Shown here piece after piece: positions 5,830 through 36,654 of a stretch of 64,000 nucleotides of DNA. The notes beneath the pieces were generated by a model, which ran no database searches, was not told where the DNA came from, and saw nothing but the letters and a program-made list of their open reading frames with translations. Positions within the stretch are counted from its first letter, which is position 1; each line of letters begins with the position of its first letter. The DNA is from Diaporthe sp. PMI_573 (Eukaryota; Ascomycota; Sordariomycetes; Diaporthales; Diaporthaceae). The position numbers were made by a program, and so were the translations under genes. The stretch covers positions 1,426,001 to 1,490,000 of the forward strand of contig JAJTUP010000003.1 of the NCBI GenBank assembly GCA_021399435.1, written 5' to 3'.

Positions 5830-7679
5830 TCACAGAGTCCTCTTCCGGGCTACCCACATGATGACGACAAGGATCCCGGTGAAGGCTGTGAGATGCACGA
5901 GCATGTGATCGAAATCGTCGAGACGGCCACAGCCGAACTTGCAGTAGCCTACAGCTCCAGCTTCGTGCTGTGAGGAGCAAGTGAACACATTAGTACAGAT
6001 GTCCAGACAAATAAGGCTGCAAATAGTAGGAAGTGGAAATATCCTTACAGTTGCTCCGAGAGCCAAATCCCATACGTCTGTGGTCGCCATAACTTTGCCA
6101 TTTGCGTCCAAGGCGTTCGCGGCAATGAAATTACCGCTGAACCTCAGAGGTATGGCTGTCTCGTACCCACGTTTTTTCACATTTTGTGTAAATGTCAGGT
6201 TCTCCCTTTTATTCCCCTCCATCTGTCAATTCTTGGTTAGCAGACGGCACGAAACCTTTACAGCGTAGCCTGGCTTCAACTTACAAGGTCCCAAGAGTGC
6301 ACCTCTGTAGCTCCATTCCAGCTTAAATATGCATAATTTTCGTCCCCGGCGATCCTTGGCTTCCATAGTGGGCTGGCCTTCCAATCCATCGTCCACGCGC
6401 GATACACTGGTTGACTGTTGGTAGAGTGGTCGAACCATGGACCCAGCATCGCATCTAGGACAATCTCGCCATCTTCTGTGTATTCAGTAATGACTGGTGT
6501 CGTGCCCCAGCTCACGAGGACATTCCCGTTGTCGAGCTTCTGGATTCCTCCCATTGCCCAGGACGCAATATCCATTGGGTGGTAATACTCGCGAACAACC
6601 TCGGCGGTCATCTTGTCGGTGTCGATGCGCAGGTGAAGACCCCTGGAACAGGTGCCCTCAATGCAGCCGGGCGAGGGGTTGCCTGGATCGAGATCGTGGT
6701 TGTCGAACAGGGTAATCTCGGTCATTTCGTCATCCAGGAACCGGGCAGTATGCTGAAACCCGAAGTTGGTGGCATTGCCACCGCTCAAGTCCTCAAACTG
6801 GTTGTTTATCCCACCAAGTTGCCAAATCACTGATCCATCCTTGCCGTTGATGTAGACCAGTGATTTGATGCGACGTCCAGACACTAGGAAGTTGCCCTCC
6901 TTTGTCTTCTGCATGCTGTTGATGTGGAAAAAGTCCCAGCCGACCTCCTCTGTGGGTGCGCCGTAGTCGCCATCGCCCCAGTTGACGGCAGTCTCGTTGA
7001 TGTCGAAATGATGGCTGGCACGCCATAGAAACTTGAGCTCGCCTGTTGCAATGTCGATCTCCTCGAATATGCTGTCCAGGAGCCAACCATCTTCAGGACC
7101 CCCACCTGGTGCATTGGTCATGTCGAAGGGAATCCTCTCGTAGGCCGTGATGAGAGCAGTCCCGTCATGTGTCAGTTGGCATTCGTGGGAATCAGCCTTG
7201 GTGTTGATCATCTTGGTCGAGATGTTGTAAACTTGTTGGTAGGACTCATCGTACAGCAAGCAGTAACCCAAGCCGTGTCCCCGGTAGTCGTTGCCCTCCC
7301 AGAACGTGAAATATGGCTTGTCGTTGTACATCTGTATCCTCGGGTTGTTGATTGACGGCCATTGTGGGTCGCCGTAGACCATGCTGAAATCTGTGGTATC
7401 GATAATGAATGGAGTGGCTGGTTGCGAGCCAGCGACGGACGACATGAACAGATATTTGCTCAGGCCAGACTTCTCAGGGTACCACTGGTTGACCTGGAAT
7501 AGCGGTGCGACCGTGTCTGTTGTTTTGAATGATTGATTAGGATGCTGGCCATAATCGCCCATATTAAATTTCTCGTAATCAGTGACATATGGTTGAGTGC
7601 GCTCCTCGGCCGCCACGAGGCCGGCTCCGACGGCGAGGCTGCCGATAAATACGGCGGGAAGATGGTTGAAGAACGGCAT
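5830..7679 (-). CDS. Arylsulfotransferase-like membrane protein
   Basis: Member of the fungal arylsulfotransferase-like family (ASST/Arylsulfotran_2 beta-propeller type), proposed to transfer sulfate between phenolic compounds; the fungal substrate is not known. Three exons: 6285-7679, 6049-6222 and 5830-5967, 568 residues. Introns are 6223-6284 (GTAAGT) and 5968-6048 (GTAAGG...CACAG). Residues 1-24 form a signal peptide (MPFFNHLPAVFIGSLAVGAG). Propeller-like segments such as ADSHECQLTHDGTALITAYE, WDFFHINSMQKTKEGNFLVS and SVIWQLGG, with the conserved His residues, support the family. A C-terminal segment (MLVHLTAFTGILVVIMWVARK) is one membrane span with basic flank, so the catalytic part should face the lumen or exterior. 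The second intron is 81 bases, a multiple of three without stop, so retention would still give an open frame. Confidence 0.88.
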
Positions 7680-33041: not shown

Positions 33042-34442
33042 ATGCGATGCAGTCAGGTCACGTTGCCAACCATGATCCGCTGGCAGAAGGCGACGTTACC
33101 ACTCTGGCTGCTGTCAGCAATTGGCTGCTTGTGTTTATCCGATGCCGTTCCATTGTGCACACCTTACCCATACTTTGACCCGCACGATCATGTTGTGTGC
33201 CCCATTGATGCAACTGGACCGATCTGGGCATCAAAATCATTGGATCTCGGCTGGCTCAAAGGATATGCCTGCCATGGCTTGGGACCGGGACAGTTCTGCA
33301 CCTTCAGTCATCCGAAGTTCAACCGCGGCCTCGGTATAGCATTCATCACCACGGATGCAATACTCGAGGACGTCTCATCTTGGCTTACCTTGCAGCCACC
33401 AGATGCGAGGGGTGGGAGCCTTGCCGCTGTGCCGCCTTACGAGGCCAAACAGATACTTGGAAAAGGAGTTGGCTTGATTGCCAACCGAGATATCAGGAGG
33501 GGAGAGCTCATCATGGCTCGGACTCCAGCGGTTTTGGTGGATGGTGAAGCATTTAATAAGTTGAGCGCAACACATCTCACACAGGCTCTGGCTCATGCAA
33601 TCAAGTCCTTGCCATATGACCATCAACATGAGTATCTCCAGCTGTCAACCCATGATGATGCCACGACCTATGAGGAGAGAGTGTACAAGATCTTCGCCAA
33701 AAATAACTTCAGGACGAAATTCCACAACGGGAAAGACTTCCACTCTACATTCACTGAAGGTTCGGCAGTCCTCTACATTTTTAAGCATTCTCAAGTTCTG
33801 ACGTCCCAACCTGTAGTATCACGAATAAATCACGATTGTCGTCCCAACAGCGGATACCATTTCGACGCATCGATGTTGTCACAAAAGGTCTATGCAGCCC
33901 GTGATATAAAAGTTGGGGAAGAGCTTAGCATCGCGTACTATGAGTACGTCCAATCGATTCTGCATCTCATTCACATGCTGACAGCACTGGGTAGTCCAAT
34001 CCAAGACCGCGACAGGCGGCAGCACCAATTACTATCACATTGGGGATTTGAGTGCACCTGCAAGCACTGCACTGCTGATCCAGACTCGATTGCACAGTCA
34101 GATAGAAATGTCGGGCAGATACATGCCCTATGGAGTGATCTTGATGATTACTCTCCAGCATCGAGGGGCTCGACAGATAAGGCCGAGCAACTCCTCGAAC
34201 TCTACAAGCTTGAGGGCCTGGACACTCGCATGCACGAGGCATACTACCGCGCCTCGGTAGAGTGGAACGGCGTGGGGAACTCGGCAGCAGCAGTCGAGGC
34301 AGCAAGAATGTGTCTAGACAGAGGAGAACAGATGAGGGGGCCACAGGCGCCCTTTGTAAAAAACATGAGGGAGTTGATACAGGATCCACAAAAGCATTGG
34401 AGTTGGAGATTTCGCCTGCCCAACGCCCATGATATTGGTTGA
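33042..34442 (+). CDS. SET-domain protein with signal peptide
   Basis: SET fold proteins are lysine methyltransferases; this fungal subgroup has an N-terminal secretion signal and unknown targets. The signal follows either ATG (33042 or 33072; the second, MIRWQKATLPLWLLSAIGCL, is the more ordinary signal peptide). SET motifs: GKGVGLIANRDIRRGELIM, the pseudoknot motif SRINHDCRPNSGYHF, and ARDIKVGEELSIAYY. The open frame hides a 51-base intron at 33944-33994 (GTACGT, branch CTGAC, GGTAG). Removing it converts AYYEYVQS... into AYYDPIQDRDRRQHQLLSHW, restoring the family's YxDP element before the post-SET-like WGFECTCKHC. Exons 33042-33943 and 33995-34442 then give 449 residues. Nuclear histone targets are doubtful given the signal. 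Confidence 0.88.
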   Translation: MRCSQVTLPTMIRWQKATLPLWLLSAIGCLCLSDAVPLCTPYPYFDPHDHVVCPIDATGPIWASKSLDLGWLKGYACHGLGPGQFCTFSHPKFNRGLGIAFITTDAILEDVSSWLTLQPPDARGGSLAAVPPYEAKQILGKGVGLIANRDIRRGELIMARTPAVLVDGEAFNKLSATHLTQALAHAIKSLPYDHQHEYLQLSTHDDATTYEERVYKIFAKNNFRTKFHNGKDFHSTFTEGSAVLYIFKHSQVLTSQPVVSRINHDCRPNSGYHFDASMLSQKVYAARDIKVGEELSIAYYEYVQSILHLIHMLTALGSPIQDRDRRQHQLLSHWGFECTCKHCTADPDSIAQSDRNVGQIHALWSDLDDYSPASRGSTDKAEQLLELYKLEGLDTRMHEAYYRASVEWNGVGNSAAAVEAARMCLDRGEQMRGPQAPFVKNMRELIQDPQKHWSWRFRLPNAHDIG

Positions 34443-34734
34443 AAATCATGTACGAACTGATCCAGGGAGCGGTCGGGGTGAAGGGACGAACAGGGATGCA
34501 CATCCCGAGTCTGGTGATTGCACGTTGGATTGGCCATGGTAGACTACAGGCAATCAAAAACAGGTCAAAGGCTTACCGTTTCCGCGACTGAGACCTGGAG
34601 ACGATATTGAATTTTTCAATATACCAACCAAATTCAAGTATGATTCTCAATTGCAATTTGTTTCTAGACCTGGTGTTGCGGATCATGTGTTGTCCGGCCA
34701 TAGGTGCACCGAAAAGCCCCGATTTCCATCGCCT

Positions 34735-34881
34735 GGTCTGGTGGTCTAGTGGTATGATTCGCGCTTAGGGCTCACCCTAATGCTTAAACTGCGCGAGGTC
34801 GTAAGTTCATCTCCACCTGTTCAGGGTGCAAAACAAATAAACTAACATCTCCCCAGCCGGGTTCAATCCCCGGCCAGACCC
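34735..34881 (+). tRNA. tRNA-Pro(AGG) with two introns
   Basis: Acceptor stem GGTCTGG (34735-34741) pairs perfectly with CCAGACC (34874-34880), discriminator C at 34881. Anticodon stem CGCGC (34760-34764) pairs with GCGCG (34791-34795); anticodon AGG is 34767-34769. T stem CCGGG (34857-34861) pairs with CCCGG (34869-34873) around TTCAATC. Intron 1 (34771-34789, 19 nt) sits after position 37, the standard site for the tRNA splicing endonuclease. A second insertion (34801-34856) separates position 48 from position 49. Internal promoter boxes: A box TGGTCTAGTGG (34742-34752) and B box GGTTCAATCCC (34860-34870). There is no run of four T within the gene. Removing both insertions leaves a 72-nt tRNA body with all stems intact. 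Confidence 0.93.
34801..34856 (+). other. Spliceosomal-type intron inside the tRNA-Pro gene
   Basis: 56-nt insertion between tRNA positions 48 and 49. It starts GTAAGT (34801-34806), has a branch-site-like CTAAC (34842-34846), a pyrimidine-rich ATCTCCCC and ends CAG (34854-34856); branch A to AG is about 11 nt. These are the consensus elements of fungal U2-type introns and not a bulge-helix-bulge of the tRNA endonuclease. Size is also typical of the protein-gene introns in this window (51-155 nt). Confidence 0.85.
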
Positions 34882-34895
34882 AACAACTAAACTCC

Positions 34896-34902
34896 TTTTT
34901 TT
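34896..34902 (+). terminator. RNA polymerase III terminator of tRNA-Pro
   Basis: Run of seven T 14 bases after the tRNA 3' end, backed up by a run of six T at 34907-34912. Confidence 0.8.
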
Positions 34903-34912
34903 GTCATTTTTT

Positions 34913-36654
34913 CCCCTTTGAATGAAAACTGTTGAAGAACTTTTGGTGAATGCTCAATATATTTTGCCATGTAATTGGACTGTGAGATCATTGACCGCGT
35001 CGGAAATCGATGTGACCACACGAAATCTTTTGAATTTCTTGGAGCTGTTTTGGACCATGGTTAGAATGGAGGTGCACTGATTTTCCTACATGCTCCAACT
35101 CCGTTCTTTATCTTGGCCAGGTCATGTATCTGGCCAGGAGTCTGAGTCCGCATGATTTCATCATCCATTACGTCCAGCACGTCCAGGCTGTGCCAGTGAT
35201 CGCATAGTGGAACGCCATTAACCCCCTTTTTTCCACCTTCCTTTTATGGGACTTTAACGCCACTATCTCAAGCTACCAAATACGAGTTGCATGGATCCCA
35301 AAAGGTTTTCGTGACGTTGCAAGAGGTATTCCAAACAACACTGCTTGCTCTATTAGAGTATGCCACAGGCGGCATCCCTGCAGAGTGTTCTACCAAAGCT
35401 TGTCATATGAGATTATCCCCTATACAGGCATTCGACACGGGGAACATTCTGGAATGACCAAGCCGTAATACCCTGTCATCCTTGGTACTGCTTCGCCGGC
35501 TGCGACCGGCTAGATTAGGAAGACCAAACTTTGAGCATGACTGACTGGATTTCCGCAAGCTAACAACCGAGGCGGCGCCACATCAAAATTGGGTGACCGA
35601 ACCCTGGTCAGATGCCCTAGGCATCCCACGCGGGCGCCGCCTGTGGCTTACGCCGTTGTGGTTTCTCACCCCCTCCCTAAGCTCGCCTGAGTCCCTCGCC
35701 CATCGGAGCTTGTGAAGCGTGAGAGCGAGGGGTCGAGACATCTCTGACCACCATCCCCCTCCCAAGGTTCCAACCCAGCCTCTGACCAGGGCAGCATCAG
35801 CCGAGCCACGTTATGGTCGGGTCCGTGCAAGTAATAAATTGAACCAGGGTGGTTTACCACAGTACGTCCCCTCGTTCTTCATGCGGACCGGGGCTGCGAA
35901 CGCAATAAAGTTTTAAGCTTTGTTGGTCCCCGCACCCCAGCCTCAAGTGCAGATGATTCGCGCATCTTGCATGCCGCGGCTTCCTGCCCCTATCCCCAGT
36001 GCGGAAGCTCGCAGCTCCCAGCTTCTCTGGTTTTAACCGCCCAACGCTGCCTCCACGAACACGAGAGGAATTTTGCCGCTTTCCGAAGCCTGTTCGAAGT
36101 CATGCGATCCTCAATGCTGCAATGCGGAATTGACCCAAACGCGGGGGTGAAGAAGCGAAAGCAAGACACCTTGCACCGCAGCGCAGATCTGCTGCGCGAG
36201 TTTGAGCGCCGTACGGACGTACCCATGCCGGGTCGTCTATCTCCTACCTCCAGGGGTTTGGCTCCGCTGGTCCTGTCCCACCGCTCTAAACCCTCGGCTC
36301 AATCTTCTTCTCAGGCTTCCATAAACGTCACAGGCGATCCCCACTCGGAGAAGACGGCCCCTGTCGGAATGAATGGTCGAGTTGCGTCCCCTCATGGTCG
36401 GTTCGGACTAGAATCCCCCTGTCAATGGCGCGATGTTATCTCGCCGTCATGACAGGGTCCCATTCCGCAGGGGCAACTGTAACGGTAGATAAATAAAAGC
36501 TTTGCCAAGGGGCGGGTGCTGTCTCTTGGAAGATGTTGGTCCCTCTTGGCTACGTCCTCCTCCGTTCCCATCTCCACCAGTGAATCCGTCACATACTAGT
36601 CGGCCATCTGTTGCGGGTGCAGCTTGCCAAGCAGCCAAGTAGACGCATCCCACG
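34913..36654. other. Intergenic region, no firm gene
   Basis: A plus-strand frame at 35967-36452 (161 codons) has protein-like parts (CLHEHERNFAAFRSLFEVM) but starts at TTG, has no upstream exon I can support and lies in GC-rich promoter DNA of the next gene. A TATA-like ATAAATAAAAG at 36489-36499 precedes the sedolisin ATG by about 155 bases. Confidence 0.45.

Follow-up and report, generated by a model that had tools for sequence, protein, structure and literature searches.

A tRNA-Pro(AGG) gene of Diaporthe sp. PMI_573 with a canonical tRNA intron and a predicted spliceosomal intron

Nuclear tRNA genes have, in the textbook case, their introns at 37/38, where a protein endonuclease cuts them. 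Among the closest systems described so far are spliceosomal introns in the U6 and U3 RNAs of fungi, extra introns built on bulge-helix-bulge (BHB) motifs in Cyanidioschyzon merolae, and the tRNA introns of nucleomorphs (passages in PMC3978253, PMC5832005, PMC10484740, PMC9602550, PMC4090602). U3 intron positions vary slightly in Dothideomycetes, according to a section of PMC5832005, and for nucleomorph tRNA introns, which measure 3-24 nt in Guillardia theta, the relevant passage of a review calls the mechanism unknown. Eukaryotic tRNA genes have been spoken of as limited to one intron in a passage of the tRNAscan-SE 2.0 paper (PMC8450103). Among titles and the starts of abstracts in the open PMC library, a scope outside which most subscription papers and bioRxiv lie, we found no described spliceosomal intron in a tRNA.

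Here we analyze a tRNA-Pro(AGG) gene in a 64,000-nucleotide stretch of Diaporthe sp. PMI_573 DNA (the window) together with its relatives in the genome. We propose, with a probability of about 0.88, that this is a working nuclear gene whose precursor would need the spliceosome to remove a 56-nt intron as well as tRNA endonuclease and ligase to remove a 19-nt intron, a reading based on sequence analysis.

Anatomy and signals of the two-insert gene

The gene occupies positions 34735-34881 of the plus strand, discriminator C73 included, and its two-intron structure is read from the pairing of its stems after removal of both inserts. Taking out the 19-nt and 56-nt segments leaves a 72-nt product with complete acceptor (7/7 pairs; GGTCTGG/CCAGACC), D (3/3), anticodon (5/5), and T (5/5) stems, and the coordinates, sequence, and stem pairing given in the original prediction were reproduced. 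In the cloverleaf reading, exon 1 (34735-34770) comprises tRNA positions 1-37 with the anticodon AGG, exon 2 (34790-34800) positions 38-48, and exon 3 (34857-34881) positions 49-73, all on the plus strand. From the usual consensus we take TGGTCTAGTGG at 34742-34752 (+) to be the A box and GGTTCAATCC at 34860-34869 (+), inside exon 3, to be the B box; a run of seven T at 34896-34902 (+) is the probable Pol III terminator. Neither ARAGORN nor Rfam’s tRNA model reported the gene.

The first insert, 19 nt at 34771-34789 (+), directly follows G37, that is, it lies at 37/38, and pairs with the anticodon region in predicted folds; it is an ordinary tRNA intron. The second, 56 nt at 34801-34856 (+), lies at 48/49 and is classed as a spliceosomal-type intron from its sequence signals, the cloverleaf reading, motif statistics, and a genome-wide pattern. 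Each signal that had been claimed for this segment was located within it: the 5’ splice site GTAAGT (34801-34806), the branch-point motif CTAAC (34842-34846; also found by pattern search) with a probable branch A at 34845, and the pyrimidine tract TCTCCCC followed by the 3’ splice site CAG at 34854-34856 (together 34848-34856), all on the plus strand. The bases at the 48/49 junction permit no shift, and only the GT-AG boundaries yield this particular tRNA.

To gauge how such signals compare with chance, we counted the strict motif GTAAGT-N20-55-CTAAC-N3-22-CAG, which matched twice in all over the two strands of the 64 kb and twice altogether in 15 Markov sequences of window length. The other match in the window, at 6223-6284 (-), restores the reading frame of a protein gene when removed and is read as an intron of that gene, which presumably encodes an arylsulfotransferase. 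A relaxed intron pattern was not enriched in the window: it matched 51 times there and 40-73 times in each of 5 Markov sequences. Evidence is therefore drawn from the strict signals and their precise position only. For one insert with fixed ends, the chance is ~2e-8, calculated as the product of three element frequencies in Markov sequence.

The original prediction also held that the segment resembles the introns of protein genes in the window, and this likeness was upheld: a frame-restoring intron was found at 4 of the 6 ORF ends examined, with lengths of 56, 62, 77, and 80 nt and starts of the form GT[AG][AC]GT. TTTT is present in two of these four introns, too few for a test. The window additionally encodes a 432-aa protein with Pfam PF00724, for which, among the best 120 of 8000 scored matches, Cytospora schulzeri (82%) and C. 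mali (81%) are the closest named species and other sources reach 93%, a result that points to Diaporthales, near Cytospora.

Seven tRNA-Pro genes and their inserts

We searched the genome (83,732,395 bases in 217 contigs) with several queries. The window gene itself recovered five of the seven tRNA-Pro genes, while the Pro D arm at ≤1 mismatch returned seven matches, every one a tRNA-Pro. The Pro anticodon arm at ≤2 mismatches matched 15 times, against 2 for the reversed control, and these matches were the same seven genes plus eight sequences without a tRNA-like look. A TGG gene used as query gave two matches, the AGG genes not being among them, and a general tRNA survey, in which 63 of 2509 first-look candidates were scored, listed none of the seven. 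A Pro D-arm scan of viral contigs gave two loci, both with an identical uninterrupted tRNA. Also noticed were repeated degenerate tRNA-like elements (L076, L077, L080, L081, and L082) that by eye have a common AT-rich upstream stretch and a T-rich end and are like a tRNA-derived SINE family. L114, L121, and L123, set against L118 and L119, appear by eye to be copies of one repeat that differ strongly in A+T content, and resemble the outcome of RIP mutation of a retroelement.

The seven genes comprise four with anticodon AGG (C141, the window gene; C196; C136; C24), one CGG (C113), and two TGG (C133 and C151). All seven carry an intron at 37/38, of 10-31 nt with positions numbered by hand, and four carry a second insert: two of the four AGG genes, both TGG genes, and not the CGG gene. 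By the same hand numbering, the second inserts measure 56 nt at 48/49 in C141, 59 nt at 46/47 in C196, 50 nt at 49/50 in C133 (G000:C133:1002179-1002310), and 51 nt at 49/50 in C151 (G000:C151:419102-419236); the predicted TGG exon junction is GCAAGAGGCCC-CGGGTTCAAAT. Every one of the four starts with GTAAGT, which suits a U1-fitting 5’ splice site, and ends with CAG, and each has CTAAC with 9-10 nt between it and the insert’s last base, a proper distance for a branch point. GT-AG boundaries fall at the exon junction in all four, unambiguously in three, with a one-base shift allowed in C196. In size (50, 51, 56, and 59 nt) and signals, the second inserts resemble the four inferred protein-gene introns of the window, a small sample.

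Inserts of 50-59 nt are far below the sizes of group I and group II introns. A self-splicing intron of either group was rejected after an Rfam scan of 33500-36100, around the window locus, which at E up to 1 found no such family; its single match was SorX, on the opposite strand.

The finding of four loci on four contigs with differing insert sequences, added to the chance of ~2e-8 for one insert, leaves an assembly artefact or a chance resemblance to an intron barely credible as an explanation. An artefact at 34801-34856, named in the original prediction as one way it could fail, is likewise contradicted by the four separate insert-bearing loci.

We then considered whether the insert-bearing copies could be pseudogenes, disrupted by the intron-like sequence that entered them. 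As passages of PMC4090602 have it, where a eukaryotic tRNA gene has an insertion in its D or T arm, it is mostly a single copy among many synonymous ones, presumed to be a pseudogene, and two insert-free AGG copies are indeed present here. Against this, more than half of the Pro genes found (4/7) have the insert, including the two with anticodon TGG, the promoter boxes and T runs are present, the boundaries are GT-AG in four of four, and the exons are unchanged over 72 nt while the inserts have diverged. The predicted mature AGG tRNA is identical over 72 nt in C141, C196, and the insert-free C136, as is the predicted mature TGG tRNA in C133 and C151; C24 differs from C136 by one base, at position 47. 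By comparison, aligning the inserts of C141 and C196 gives 20 differing columns out of 62 (Fisher p = 3e-8 versus exons), and aligning those of C133 and C151 gives 16 out of 51 (p = 2e-7). Unchanged exons beside diverged inserts are expected under selection on the exons, and dead genes would not retain them, so we regard disruption as very unlikely. The original prediction had named many intact AGG copies, together with a lack of spliced reads, as a sign of a pseudogene: insert-free copies exist (2/4), but like inserts stand in another AGG gene and in the TGG pair, with exons unchanged. The count of Pro(AGG) copies with a second insert, proposed there as a check, is thus two of four.

By pair counts at fixed positions we found the cloverleaf, the Pro anticodon, the internal promoter, and the terminator; TTTT occurs in none of the seven genes, and a run of at least four T lies downstream of each. 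Both promoter boxes are left whole by the second inserts. Two features count against working genes. Measured from where the A box starts, the B box lies 102-119 bases away, a wide spacing compared with 60 in AGG genes free of the insert and 73 in the CGG gene. Where most tRNAs have G18 in the D loop, the two TGG genes carry C (AGTCG for AGTGG).

Searches of the genome with the TGG gene, the Pro D arm, and the Pro anticodon arm found no insert-free TGG gene, although a diverged one may have escaped, since the general survey scored 63 of 2509 candidates and the TGG query did not return the AGG genes. For the AGG genes, the junction GAGGTC-CCGGG is also encoded uninterrupted by C136, so reads across the AGG junction alone are not decisive.

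Flanks of the insert-bearing loci, ~1.5 kb per side, had no BLAST similarity to one another at E 0.01, which argues against a recent segmental duplication; when all seven loci were compared, a likeness was seen solely between C136 and C24, on the 3’ side. Similarity between the inner parts of the inserts is weak, its score being reached by 13 of 500 shuffles for C141-C196, 15 for C196-C133, 55 for the TGG pair, and 143, 223, and 442 for the other three pairs. Reverse splicing may be the origin of these introns.

We also surveyed the genome for the arrangement itself, using patterns that covered GTAAGT 5’ sites or CTAAC/CTGAC branch motifs in inserts ending no more than ~10 nt upstream of the B box. 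The pattern GTAAGT-N25-55-AG-N0-10-GGTTCRANYCC, which demands neither a branch point nor a Pro tRNA, matched four times in 83.7 Mb, and these matches are exactly the four insert-bearing tRNA-Pro genes. The reversed control of this pattern also matched four times, so the count alone proves nothing; what carries weight is that each true match falls in a tRNA-Pro gene whose exons are whole, with no stray match. CTAAC before a B box gave 10 matches, against 6 for its reversed control: the four insert-bearing genes, two tRNA genes with an intron in the anticodon loop (a tRNA-Lys and the tRNA-Pro(CGG)), and four others, which were rejected by eye as tRNA genes bearing such an insert. CTGAC before a B box gave 16 matches versus 4 in the control and no additional case, seven of them being surveyed tRNA genes, six judged by eye from context, and three judged from the matched letters only. 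In the part of the ARAGORN output on 53 tRNA regions that was inspected by eye, with detail up to L074, no GT-AG insert was seen outside the anticodon loop. That the four insert-bearing genes all went unreported by ARAGORN suggests that annotation programs overlook tRNA genes of such build, although the program also misread the AGG genes that have no insert and identified correctly the CGG gene alone.

Candidate splicing machineries and the U6 gene of the host

The placement of the second inserts at 46/47, 48/49, and 49/50 departs from the canonical tRNA-endonuclease position, 37/38. Cutting by that endonuclease at an atypical place, as in C. merolae or archaea, has a precedent in the T-arm introns of C. 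merolae tRNA-Ile(UAU) (in a passage of PMC9602550), for which BHB motifs seem critical (in part of PMC4090602). In our four genes no BHB was found at strict register, the central helix having 2, 2, 0, and 0 of 4 pairs, and the elements common to the inserts are instead GTAAGT, CTAAC, and CAG. We consider an atypical endonuclease cut slightly less probable still than disruption of the genes.

Another explanation would confine splicing of the insert to Pol II read-through transcripts, with the intron incidental to an mRNA or UTR and the tRNA pool supplied by insert-free genes. At the window locus read-through is conceivable, as a 466-codon ORF, presumably SET-like, ends 292 nt upstream of the tRNA gene on the same strand. 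Yet the intron recurs at nearly one tRNA position in four loci with unrelated flanks, the inserts lack TTTT, and the genome searches found no insert-free TGG gene that could supply the pool. Incidental splicing of this kind therefore seems about as improbable as disruption.

Splicing of a Pol III transcript would have a counterpart in the same genome. The original prediction pointed to fungal U6 RNA as a precedent, and the link was borne out in that the host’s canonical-sequence U6 gene (L091; G000:C138, about 750,600-750,840, +) has two GT-AG introns, both with CTAAC, flanking AGAGAAGAT. In our exon reading by hand, the first exon ends GATAC and is followed by AGAGAAGAT and then TAGCATGG; the Rfam alignment covered the last exon well and the remainder poorly. 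Within each of the two U6 inserts lies a B-box-like GTTCGATTCC. In a further U6 copy (L092; G000:C173:238167-238226, -) the second site holds an insert, but a first exon is not clearly recognizable.

Five U6-like matches were found in the genome, three of them above the Rfam cut-off, and a 28-base pattern spanning both U6 junctions had no match at ≤3 mismatches. The best of the five (L089; G000:C35:1172277-1172375, -; 54.2 bits versus a cut-off of 44) is an uninterrupted, diverged U6-like gene that differs from the 28-base pattern at four bases and is preceded by a TATA-like stretch and followed by a long T run; it could be a variant that works or a copy that has diverged. Because this uninterrupted gene exists above the cut-off, the support from U6 is not watertight. 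Judging from gene structure, splicing of a Pol III transcript in Diaporthe sp. PMI_573 is nonetheless likely. By eye, the U3 of the host has no obvious intron.

We return to the reading of a working tRNA-Pro(AGG) gene with two introns. Its anatomy, the exact boundaries, the several loci, the conservation of exons versus the divergence of inserts, and a U6 gene with similar introns can all be read from the sequence, and the original proposal that two machineries would be needed draws support from the inserts at four loci, the unchanged exons, and the intron-bearing U6. Transcription by Pol III would rely on the internal A and B boxes of the gene. The 56-nt intron at 48/49 would be a U2-type spliceosomal intron taken out by the spliceosome, and the 19-nt intron at 37/38 would be taken out by tRNA splicing endonuclease and ligase. 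The spliceosome would probably act first, in the nucleus, because the second insert sits in the variable region or at the start of the T stem. Minimum-energy folds computed after removal of the second insert contain a proper T arm in three of seven precursors, the insert-free C136 being among those without, so these folds tell little. The same two-intron arrangement recurs in AGG gene C196 (46/47) and both TGG genes (49/50).

The consequences could differ between the two isoacceptors. For tRNA-Pro(UGG), a dependence of the fungus on the spliceosome is probable, given that the insert is present in each of the two TGG genes found. The AGG copy in the window could be dispensable, as the decoding of AGG would be covered by the two copies that have no insert. 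Taken jointly, and held with good but lesser confidence than the reading of the window gene, all tRNA-Pro(UGG) and part of tRNA-Pro(AGG) would become functional only after processing by both spliceosome and tRNA endonuclease, the spliceosome may itself need spliced U6, and the introns would have entered at most three neighbouring sites, perhaps by reverse splicing.

Relation to known systems

If this is true, two splicing systems would meet in a single tRNA molecule, translation would be coupled to spliceosome activity, and Pol III transcripts besides U6 could be spliced. Intron gain by reverse splicing would also become testable beyond mRNA.

The closest likeness is to the U6 snRNA introns of Schizosaccharomyces pombe and other fungi, which, as here, are mRNA-type introns in a Pol III transcript. 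The host RNA in the present case is a tRNA, which does not belong to the spliceosome, and its gene carries a tRNA-endonuclease intron as well. Fungal U3 snoRNA genes similarly hold normal spliceosomal introns in a noncoding RNA and, as here, in some paralogues only (a section of PMC5832005); U3, however, is not a tRNA, and the second splicing system is not involved. mRNA-type introns in the nuclear 18S rDNA of some fungi (the subject of a 1993 paper cited in PMC11782384) are again located in a structural RNA gene outside the reach of Pol II, the host there being rRNA and here tRNA. Finally, tRNA genes of C. merolae and of nucleomorphs resemble those described here in having multiple introns, with the T arm among the sites (passages of PMC9602550 and PMC4090602), whereas the C. 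merolae introns rest on BHB motifs and the second inserts of Diaporthe sp. PMI_573 carry spliceosomal signals.
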